A DNA stretch of 42,003 nucleotides from Omnitrophica bacterium GWA2_41_15 (GTDB lineage Bacteria > Omnitrophota > Gorgyraeia > Gygaellales > Profunditerraquicolaceae). How positions within the stretch are numbered: position 1 is the stretch's first letter; every line of letters starts with the position of its first letter. Positions 4,909-24,396 of this stretch are shown piece by piece. Position numbers and translations under genes: made by a program. Below the pieces are notes generated by a model. That model saw only the letters and a list, made by a program, of their open reading frames with translations, did no database searches and was not told the DNA's origin. The stretch lies in NCBI GenBank assembly GCA_919902445.1, contig CAKKQZ010000019.1, positions 1 through 42,003 on the forward strand, in the 5' to 3' direction.

Positions 4909-5871
4909 CTATCTTGTCAGAGCCCTAACTTGAGCCTTATCAATAAAATTCTGTATTTCTGGGTTATCGGGATCTAACTGCTGGGCATCCAATGCTTCTT
5001 TTATTGCCGTAGGGTAATCCTGTTTGTCGTAAGATTTTTTGGACTTACTAAAATGCTCGCGGGCAAGAGCCTTATCGTCATTTTTAAGTAGGGCTTTCTT
5101 ATTTGCCACCTCTTTTAAAAACTCAACAACCTCCTGCTCGCGGCTATCCCTAAGAGGGGTCCTCGATGAAACAAACTGTATGTCTTCAAGGCGTTTTTTT
5201 GCCTTTTCTGTCCATGGATCTTCTGGAGAACCTAACGCAGCCCTTTTACCCCAGTAAATGGCGGCTTTGTTAAAATCACGTTTATTTTCATAGAATAGCG
5301 CCAAGTTTGTACAGGCGCTTAAATAGGACGGGTCTATTTTTATTGCACTAAGATAGCTCTCTTCTGCCCGATCAGTTTCCCCTTTTGTCTCGTAAATTAC
5401 ACCCAAATCATTATAGGCAACCGCGAATAAAGAATCTAATTCTATCGCCTTCTGATAAAACCCAAGTGCGGCATCGATATTCCCTATCTGCTGATACTTC
5501 AACCCCTGATCACGGTATGCCCTTGCCTCTAATTGCAGCTGCGTTAAACTTTCTAACTCCTTTTGCTCTTTTTTGGCATCTTGTTTTGACTCCTTTGCGG
5601 CCTTTTTTGTCTCAGGAGACTGGCTGGATTCGATAATGCCTTTGTTTCCTTTAGGAATCAAACTTGATTCCTGCGCAAAGACAAAAACAGGAGCTGCTAT
5701 AACTATGGAAAACAACACTACGGGCATAGCCGTGGTACCTATATGTATCCTCCTGCGCCCTTTAATATAGCTTGTTATAGCTCTGACGGGCTTCGGAGGA
5801 TTATCCGCTTGAGTGCTTACGGCATGCCCATTTAGTGACATCCAGCGAAGAAGTTTCTTTTCCGTATTCAT
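4909..5871 (-). CDS. Secreted TPR-repeat protein with a repeat-derived insert in its N-terminal region
   Basis: TPR units (YQQIGNIDAALGFYQKAIELD, YNDLGVIYETKGETDRAEESYLSAIKID) and hydrophobic VVLFSIVIAAPVFVFAQ. The start is uncertain: the ORF opens at 5952, MNTEKK begins at 5871. Confidence 0.7.
   Translation of the reverse strand: MNTEKKLLRWMSLNGHAVSTQADNPPKPVRAITSYIKGRRRIHIGTTAMPVVLFSIVIAAPVFVFAQESSLIPKGNKGIIESSQSPETKKAAKESKQDAKKEQKELESLTQLQLEARAYRDQGLKYQQIGNIDAALGFYQKAIELDSLFAVAYNDLGVIYETKGETDRAEESYLSAIKIDPSYLSACTNLALFYENKRDFNKAAIYWGKRAALGSPEDPWTEKAKKRLEDIQFVSSRTPLRDSREQEVVEFLKEVANKKALLKNDDKALAREHFSKSKKSYDKQDYPTAIKEALDAQQLDPDNPEIQNFIDKAQVRALTR
5705..5844 (-). repeat. Long copy of the CACTACGGGCATAGCCGTG palindromic element inside the TPR ORF
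   Basis: Shares both ends with 19690-19743 plus an ~86 bp middle. Arms 5716-5735 / 5818-5837 and inner stem 5747-5760 / 5788-5801 form a nested hairpin. Confidence 0.8.
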
Positions 5872-5966
5872 CCTAAGTGCATGCAGTGGAATTCTACTAA
5901 GGCGGATAAACACAAAGGATATATTTTTTATTTTTTTAAGGTAGGATTGCATTGGACTTTTGCTAT

Positions 5967-8710: not shown

Positions 8711-8721
8711 TCCAGAACGTA

Positions 8722-8771
8722 GGGACAGTCCCACTTAGTAGACTACTTATAGCTATGACGGGGACAGTCCC
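8722..8771. repeat. Paired GGGACAGTCCC palindromes (REP-like)
   Basis: Exact GGGACAGTCCC at 8722-8732 and 8761-8771. Confidence 0.85.
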
Positions 8772-9625
8772 TCTTGTTGCAGTTTCGCTGCCTCAACGAG
8801 GTTGCGCATTAACATGGTAACCGTCAAAGGCCCCACACCTCCCGGAACAGGCGTGATGTAACCTGCCCTTTCAAATGCCTTTTCAAATTCCACATCACCT
8901 ACTATTTTATCACCAACTTTATTTATTCCCACATCAATGACAATCGCACCCTCTTGAACCCATTCACCCTGGATGATTCCGGGTTTTCCTACTGCTACCA
9001 CCAAAATCTCCGCCCTTTTAACGTGTGTGGGAAGATACCCCCTTTGGCCTGTCGCAATATGGCAGGTGGTAGTAGTAGCGAATTTATCTAATAAGAGGAG
9101 GCTTACCGGTTTTCCAACTATCTCACTGTGGCCTACAATAACCGCCTCTTTCCCATATAGGTCAACGCCTGTAGATTTTATCAATTCCATTACTGCCAAG
9201 GCAGTACAAGAGCCTATGCGCATCTTGCCAAATAGGGCCTGGCCCACATTCTCCGGATGCATACCCTCTACATCCTTTAAGGGGTCGATATGAATAGGAA
9301 TATTTTTGGAGTTTATGTGGCTGGGCAAAGGCAGTTGCAAAAGTATTCCCGTTACAAATTTATCCTGATTTAATTTTCCAATATAATCTATGAGTTCTGA
9401 TTCAGTTGTGGCGGCTGAAAGGAGGTGTTCTCGGAATTCTACCCTTAAATCCTTGGCAAGTTTCTTTTGTGACTTCAAATAGATAGCCGATTGGGAATTT
9501 TCACCTACTTGAATGGTAGCTAATGTAGGCATTGTCTTGAATTTAACCTGCAAATTTTCAATTTCTTCTTTAAGTTGCTCTTTTATTTTTTCTGCAATAG
9601 GCCTACCCTCTAATAATTTTGCCAA
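8753..9625 (-). CDS. folD: Bifunctional methylene-THF dehydrogenase / methenyl-THF cyclohydrolase
   Basis: GILLQLPLPSHI, VEGMHPENVG, VIVGHSEIVGKPVSLLL, TPVPGGVGPLTVTMLMRN. Confidence 0.95.
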   Translation of the reverse strand: MAKLLEGRPIAEKIKEQLKEEIENLQVKFKTMPTLATIQVGENSQSAIYLKSQKKLAKDLRVEFREHLLSAATTESELIDYIGKLNQDKFVTGILLQLPLPSHINSKNIPIHIDPLKDVEGMHPENVGQALFGKMRIGSCTALAVMELIKSTGVDLYGKEAVIVGHSEIVGKPVSLLLLDKFATTTTCHIATGQRGYLPTHVKRAEILVVAVGKPGIIQGEWVQEGAIVIDVGINKVGDKIVGDVEFEKAFERAGYITPVPGGVGPLTVTMLMRNLVEAAKLQQEGLSPS

Positions 9626-19689: not shown

Positions 19690-19743
19690 ATGGAAAACAA
19701 CACTACGGGCATAGCCGTGATACCTATATTTAGTGACATCCAC
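19690..19743 (-). repeat. Short copy of the CACTACGGGCATAGCCGTG palindromic element
   Basis: ATGGAAAACAACACTACGGGCATAGCCGTG(A)TACCTATAT plus TTTAGTGACATCCA, shared with 5705-5844. Confidence 0.8.
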
Positions 19744-19772
19744 CGTAGCCCGTCATAGCTATTAACTCTCCA

Positions 19773-20768
19773 TTAAAGGGCGAAGTCGGATAAATTAATA
19801 AGTTTTCTTACTTCGGACATAGTCTGCGAAGCAATTTTTCCAGCTTTTTTCTCTCCCTGGGCCAATATATCGAAAATTTTTGTTTTATTTTTAAGAAGCC
19901 CTTTTCTTTTTTCCTGAATCGGTTCAAGATATTTAATCAGTATTTGCGCTAATTCCTTTTTGCAGTCAACGCAGCCGATTTCTGACTTACGGCAGCGTTC
20001 ATCCATTTCTTTTTTTCTCTCAGGCGCAAAAACAGCATAATAACTGTGCACATTGCATTTTTCAGGATGTCCGGGGTCGGTAAATTTAATCCGCGCAGGA
20101 TCAGTAAACATATTCATTACTTTTTTGAGTATCGCATCGGGCTCTTCAGAAAGGGCGATATAATTATTATAGCTCTTGCTCATCTTTCTGCCGTCAAGGC
20201 CTAAAAGCCGGTTTGTCCTAGTTAAAACCGCCTTCGGATCAGGAAAAAATTCTAATCTGTAAATATGGTTGAATTTTCTAGAAATCTGGCGCGTCAATTC
20301 CAGATGCGCAAGCTGGTCCTCTCCTACCGGAACCGCCTCTGCCTTATAAAGGAGGATATCCGCTGCCTGTAAAACCGGGTATCCTAAAAATGCGTAGGTG
20401 CTCAGGTCCCTGTTTGTTATTTCACGCATCTGCTCCTTATAAGTCGGGCAGCGCTCAAGTAAACCAAGCTGCGTAATTAATGAGAAAACCATGTACAATT
20501 CAAGGTGCTCTTTCACATGCGACTGTACAAAAATGGTGGATTTTTTAGGAGATATTCCGCAGGCAAGCCAATCAACAACATTATCAAGGATATTTTCTTT
20601 TAAGTCTATTGGGTTTTCATATTCTGACATAAGCGCGTGCCAATCAGCTACCATAAACAAACACTCGTATTCATCCTGTAGTTTTATCCAATTATCCAAT
20701 GCGCCCATAAGGTGCCCTAAATGCAATTTTCCCGTAGGACGCATCCCGCTTAATATTATTTTTTTCAT
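19773..20768 (-). CDS. trpS: Tryptophanyl-tRNA synthetase
   Basis: LSGMRPTGKLHLGHLMGALDNW, GLDGRKMSKSYNN. Confidence 0.96.
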   Translation of the reverse strand: MKKIILSGMRPTGKLHLGHLMGALDNWIKLQDEYECLFMVADWHALMSEYENPIDLKENILDNVVDWLACGISPKKSTIFVQSHVKEHLELYMVFSLITQLGLLERCPTYKEQMREITNRDLSTYAFLGYPVLQAADILLYKAEAVPVGEDQLAHLELTRQISRKFNHIYRLEFFPDPKAVLTRTNRLLGLDGRKMSKSYNNYIALSEEPDAILKKVMNMFTDPARIKFTDPGHPEKCNVHSYYAVFAPERKKEMDERCRKSEIGCVDCKKELAQILIKYLEPIQEKRKGLLKNKTKIFDILAQGEKKAGKIASQTMSEVRKLINLSDFAL

Positions 20769-24289: not shown

Positions 24290-24396
24290 CTCCTTAATGA
24301 GCCCACAACTTACGGAACGTTAGTGAACGTAAGTTGTTTGGGCGAATTAATCCCGCTTCTTGATTTCCAAGGTAACAGCGGGAGAAGTTCAACCGC
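24290..24396 (-). repeat. Leader-associated structured repeat, copy 2 (upstream of nusA)
   Basis: GCCCACAACTTACG...CGTAAGTTGTTTGGGC; TCCCGCT...AGCGGGA; AGAAGTTCAACCGC. Confidence 0.85.

Follow-up and report, generated by a model that had tools for sequence, protein, structure and literature searches.

The signal-peptide sequence of a TPR-protein gene has been entered, in frame, by a short dispersed repeat that is very probably a non-autonomous mobile element with ends of the IS200/IS605 type. Three features support this class assignment: a guide/target pairing code that varies in step across phyla, the target itself, and the subterminal hairpins.

The gene lies at positions 4909..5952 (-) of the window, the 42,003-nucleotide stretch of Omnitrophica DNA that was analysed, and has Pfam TPR matches at residues 141-218. 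It comprises 347 codons as filled, and 280 after in-silico excision of the element. The inserted element occupies 5705..5905 (-): 201 nt (67 codons), beginning CCGCC and ending CCAT. Because 201 is 3 x 67 and all 201 nt are free of stops in the TPR frame, the gene is still readable. The host 5' part (5906..5952, (-); MQSYLKKIKNISFVF plus AT) encodes the n-region MQSYLKKIKN and the first half of the signal-peptide core, opening at the ATG at 5950-5952 (-). Excision joins MQSYLKKIKNISFVF to IVIAAPVFVFAQ and yields a complete, ordinary signal peptide from that ATG; the insertion point is within the hydrophobic core, between ISFVF and IVIAAPVFVF. About 30 TPR orthologs without the insert have ordinary signal peptides, placed like the reconstructed MQSYLKKIKN one. 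A TATAAT box stands 20 nt upstream of the ATG at 5952, and most of 16 orthologs have a TATAAT-like box in a similar place ahead of the start. Kyte-Doolittle peaks with and without the insert are nearly equal (2.89 and 2.85), because the hydrophobic core is rebuilt by PVVLFS, encoded by the last codons of the element. There is good support for the in-frame insertion, and the enlarged 347-residue protein may still be made and exported.

The first-pass annotation was correct on the sequence, on the arms of the hairpin and on the frame being open, and its central proposal, that a mobile palindromic repeat has inserted in frame in a protein-coding gene, is borne out by the open frame and by recurrence. 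It had set the repeat at 5705-5844; position 5705 is exact, but the true left end is at 5905, 61 nt further. The peptide MNTEKKLL (5848..5871, (-)), taken at that time for the host n-region, consequently lies inside the repeat, and is conserved in other copies as MNAKKKLL and similar sequences. Nor does the repeat part MNTEKKLL from a hydrophobic core, as had been proposed, since the insertion falls inside the core. Orthologs that lack the repeat yet keep the same N-terminal peptide were not found: they lack both the repeat and MNTEKKLL.

The search for the repeat in unrelated reading frames, suggested at the outset, found a copy in a peptidase-like gene on another contig (C9) of the same 1.29-Mb genome. 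This 198-nt copy also sits in frame in a signal peptide, is 94% identical to the window copy over the 146 bases compared, and on excision in silico leaves the intact signal peptide MIKKFILPLIISFVFLHICSAQEG. Two genes unrelated to each other thus regain an intact signal peptide on excision in silico (MQSYLKKIKNISFVFIVIAAPVFVFAQ; MIKKFILPLIISFVFLHICSAQ). The genome holds about 20 related copies, at unrelated loci but with identical ends, mostly just upstream of genes, which form two subfamilies with a common layout: a left hairpin beginning CCGCC-TTCGC; GATGAATGC; GGATGTCRC; optional nested hairpins; and a right end composed of GGTA, a hairpin, and GGGG..CCAT. Nearly every copy of subfamily A is open in the ATGAAT frame. 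General coding selection on the element is not claimed, because the same does not hold for subfamily B or for many copies elsewhere. Strict orientation towards genes likewise fails as a universal rule: the copies of one other genome (G073), and one copy in this genome, are inverted.

Elements range from 55 to 279 nt across the family and are present in 11 of the 108 genomes searched in the GTDB family. A right-end pattern found 74 stretches in named records, including those of Omnitrophota, FCPU426, Nitrospirota-like bacteria, Deltaproteobacteria, Patescibacteria, Elusimicrobia and Auribacterota. (We take the BMS3B bins that carry the element to be Nitrospirota-like.) No description of the family was found in the open-licence literature searched. 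The window contains a second copy, at 19690..19789 (-), between trpS and scpA. The trpS C-terminus, NLSDFAL and stop, is read from this copy, whose open reading frame (MSLNIGITAMPVVLFSMNP and stop) overlaps the start of scpA at its end, in ATGA.

The TPR copy shows the common layout in partly degenerate form, all on the minus strand (-). Its left cleavage and target site, TTAT, at 5906..5909 (-), is host-derived, with insertion 3' of TTAT; the host origin of the left flank is directly shown solely at the empty site described below. The left guide position, 5890..5893 (-), reads AATT, degenerate relative to the family AAGA, and the left subterminal palindrome region (CCACTGCATGCACTTAGG; 5872..5889, (-)) appears degenerate in the alignment. 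A nested ATCCTCC/GGAGGAT hairpin at 5747..5801 (-) is found alone on contig C5 (G000:C5:9671). The right guide GGTA, at 5736..5739 (-), is near-invariant among aligned copies. It precedes the right subterminal hairpin CCACGGCTATGCCCGTAGTG (5716..5735, (-)), which shows covariation across the family. The right cleavage site, CCAT at 5705..5708 (-), is the conserved 3' end of the element. The two ends, CCGCC and CCAT, are not inverted repeats of each other.

Recurrence of copies is stronger evidence for the repeat than folding is. The minus-strand RNA folds at -59.0 kcal/mol versus -50.0 +/- 4.2 for shuffles (z = -2.1; 7 of 200 shuffles as good), and the other strand, folded as DNA, does not stand out from shuffles (z = -0.8). 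Covariation is clear in the right hairpin: 89.9% of cells are paired, and the score is 0.211 versus 0.118 (0 of 500 shuffles). The left hairpin is visible in most copies. From the MAFFT alignment of left ends RNAalifold gave no consensus structure, but the outer helix is visible on manual inspection; there, ATCCGCC/GGCGGAT is swapped for ATCCCCC/GGGGGAT, ATCCCGAT/ATCGGGAT and others.

The pairing code provides the link to a known class of transposon. In IS608, a tetranucleotide 5' of each hairpin (guides AAAG and GAAT) pairs with the cleavage sites TTAC and TCAA; the target that is retained is the left of the two sites (PMC5934647; PMC8266576). Guide nucleotides 1-2 pair with site nucleotides 2-1, and nucleotide 4 with nucleotide 4, as in TTAC/AAAG and TCAA/GAAT (PMC5934647). 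Under these rules a right guide GGTA calls for CCNT, and the element is observed to end in CCAT. Because the pattern behind the 74 stretches contained both GGTA and CCAT, right-end pairing was counted only from copies found by other queries; no pattern fixed the left guides. Most left ends combine AAGA with TTAT. Others carry AGGA with CTAT (Meg22 bin 89), GAAA or GATA with TCAT, and GGGA or GGTA with CCAT. Four pairings of the first two bases (AA/TT, AG/CT, GA/TC, GG/CC) are present across phyla.

Automated extraction, in a table that contains extraction errors, matched guide to site in 20 of 37 cases against a permuted mean of 8.8, and 0 of 5000 permutations scored as high as 20. Guides read by eye, a table that could be biased, satisfied the first two pairs in 31 of 38 copies (all three pairs in 28), against a permuted mean of 18.3 and a maximum of 26. 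Related copies are non-independent in these counts, but each of the four pairings was seen in a different genome or genomes. The first-two-pair rule is broken in seven of the 38 copies, and the left guide of the window copy itself fails at the fourth pair. In an exploratory comparison, the two bases 3' of the left hairpin tended to shift with the guide (AA guides were accompanied by AT and both GA guides by AG; exceptions in SG15), and might act like the triplet-forming bases of IS608.

The one clean empty site seen is in a related genus, that of G124, where a GT9 gene is filled in G124 and empty in G116, G110 and G111. The empty site in G116 reads GAAGTGCCTATTTTAT joined to ATGATCAAA, with close variants in the other two; the filled site reads GAAGTGCCTATTTTCTAT, then the element ending in CCAT, then GATCAAG, giving the junctions GCCTATTTTCTAT/element/GATCAAG. 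Insertion was at YTAT^G, inside the start codon. Nothing else was lost, and the terminal CCAT of the element restores the ATG. Cuts before, within or after AT are indistinguishable here because AT stands at both junctions; an IS200/IS605 parse would place the cut after AT. Here (L253/L135, G124:C37) an upstream glycosyltransferase-like reading frame has become fused in frame to the GT9 gene through the element, creating an open frame of 539 codons; in relatives these are two genes that overlap and use different frames.

When the flanks of 18 copies from the window's genome are joined, 16 of the junctions read TTAT, and natural ATG starts are recovered for plsY, rsmD, a secreted-protein gene on C41 and a gene on C76. 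The target sites used are TTAT, CTAT, TCAT and CCAT. Both the GT9 empty site and these joins indicate that the target is retained as a tetranucleotide, with no longer target duplication. Of 79 copies, 12 have their 3' end at -2 to +4 of an ATG that opens a frame of 100 codons or more, versus 2.3% of random positions; the 5' end lies at such an ATG in 0 of 36.

This suggests a model for transposition through single-stranded DNA. The left and right subterminal hairpins would each present a guide on the 5' side (AAGA and GGTA in the family), which would pair with the left site TTAT, a host target that is retained, and with the right site CCAT, the element terminus. A Y1/HUH transposase supplied in trans could then cut both sites and place the element on the 3' side of a TTAT-like target, with no duplication beyond the retained tetranucleotide. 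A target within TTATG at a start codon would be regenerated as CCATG. In the TPR gene the target on this model was TTT-AT of the signal-peptide core, which the PVVLFS codons rebuild.

Several other explanations deserve consideration. The TPR gene might be mispredicted, with translation beginning only after most or all of the element, which would then be largely an untranslated 5' leader; an internal ATG at MPVVLFSIVIAAPVFVFAQ could indeed yield a short signal peptide, albeit one lacking a charged n-region. The TATAAT box 20 nt upstream of the ATG at 5952, placed as in orthologs, argues otherwise, as do the complete signal peptide that excision gives from that ATG, the frame open over 201 nt, and the second in-frame copy, in the C9 gene, which behaves alike. 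We regard misprediction as unlikely. Movement as a REP/REPIN-type repeat by the RAYT-like Y1 transposases of the genome is very unlikely. Three such genes are present, and REPs also use a tetranucleotide near a hairpin (PMC8266576), but Y1 genes in this and other genomes are flanked by other hairpins (the GGGACACCC type). Moreover, the element has two distinct ends, each with a guide and a cleavage site, and spans 55-279 nt, versus the 20-40 bp of GTAG/CGTC REPs (PMC3733652).

The preference for gene starts invites a reading without any transposon-type element: a cis-regulatory leader with a folded RNA structure, either riboswitch-like or translational, that stands ahead of start codons and has been copied. 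The excess of 3' ends at ATG starts (12 of 79 versus 2.3% of random positions, with 0 of 36 for 5' ends), GGGG at Shine-Dalgarno distance from CCATG, and an RNA fold better than shuffles all accord with such a leader. Use of a TTAT target, however, accounts for the start codons by itself; the downstream genes share no function; some copies are located within genes, upstream of promoters or in inverse orientation to genes; and Rfam holds no fitting family at E<=1. Guide/target covariation weakens the idea further, and we judge it a shade less probable still than movement by the RAYT-like enzymes. HEARO RNAs are mobile and adjoin ATGA or GTGA, raising the thought that the element belongs to an RNA-guided nuclease (HEARO/IscB, or a TnpB omegaRNA) instead of being a transposase substrate. 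This is scarcely credible: HEARO (RF02033) gave no match at E<=1, and TnpB was above cut-off in 0 of 20 genomes.

A mobile element with IS200/IS605-type ends would require an enzyme, and we infer one acting in trans because no Y1 or TnpB gene with element ends was found. Y1 genes occur in the window's genome and in 16 of 20 other element-bearing genomes; none of those examined is flanked by element ends. The window's genome has three RAYT-like Y1 genes (L119, L120 and L121, on C56, C44 and C60), and these are flanked by their own GGGACACCC/GGGACGTTCCC hairpins. Similar hairpins, of the GGGACAGTCCC type, occupy an intergenic spacer at 8720-8775 of the window. TnpB (PF07282) was absent above cut-off from all 20 genomes in a search with positive controls. 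The IscB (PF14239) search scored 0 of 20, but its controls were silent, so that result carries no weight either way. No tnpA or tnpB was seen inside or beside any copy, and the loci examined held no autonomous copy (both ends with a transposase between). No Rfam family fits the element at E<=1.

The element resembles IS200/IS605 transposons (IS608, ISDra2) and their MITE/PATE-type derivatives in its subterminal hairpins, each with a guide tetranucleotide on the 5' side, its insertion 3' of a retained tetranucleotide, the A at the third base of the cleavage site, and the IS608 pairing geometry (PMC5934647). It differs in its targets (TTAT, CTAT, TCAT, CCAT), an extra outer helix, nested hairpins, in-frame gene insertions, and the absence of tnpA and tnpB within or next to any copy seen. 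The likeness to Rickettsia palindromic elements (RPEs) drawn in the first-pass annotation holds for the effect, a short palindromic repeat in frame in unrelated protein genes (PMC2229807, PMC3733652), here the TPR gene, the C9 peptidase gene and the G124 read-through fusion. It does not hold for end structure and target rule, which are those of IS200/IS605. RPEs have 12-bp terminal inverted repeats and a long terminal stem-loop (PMC2229807), measure 105-146 bp and are confined to Rickettsia, whereas this element has two unlike ends without such a structure, spans 55-279 nt and occurs in several phyla. The Yersinia MITE YPAL/RU-2 also supplies part of a signal peptide, that of the putative exported protein YPO1552 (PMC2229807), but as a new fused reading frame; here a pre-existing signal peptide was entered, and orthologs are without the insert. 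REP/TnpA_REP (RAYT) systems share palindromes, a tetranucleotide by the hairpin, and genomes with Y1 enzymes; REPs are GTAG/CGTC sequences of 20-40 bp, and the RAYT genes here carry other hairpins.

With these results, insertions read in frame within proteins would no longer be confined to Rickettsia but would reach uncultured phyla, with a concrete landing rule. The results also offer a natural cross-phylum record of a pairing code that structural and engineering work had established for IS608. Ends that restore start codons suggest a way for mobile repeats to build up in small, gene-dense genomes while doing little harm. More speculatively, and with considerable doubt on our part, the copies may constitute a multi-phylum IS200/IS605-like family with ends shaped so as not to harm translation (GGGG at Shine-Dalgarno spacing in the right end, a start-rebuilding CCAT and one open-frame subfamily), spreading into the gene starts and signal peptides of compact genomes by means of a still unrecognised trans-acting transposase.

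Other dispersed repeat families in the window are often adjacent to one another: 57 nt (positions 24293, 34550 and 37211), 47 nt (157, 24351 and 37315) and 61 nt (100 and 37257). One of these resembles the sequence beside the lone nested hairpin on C5.
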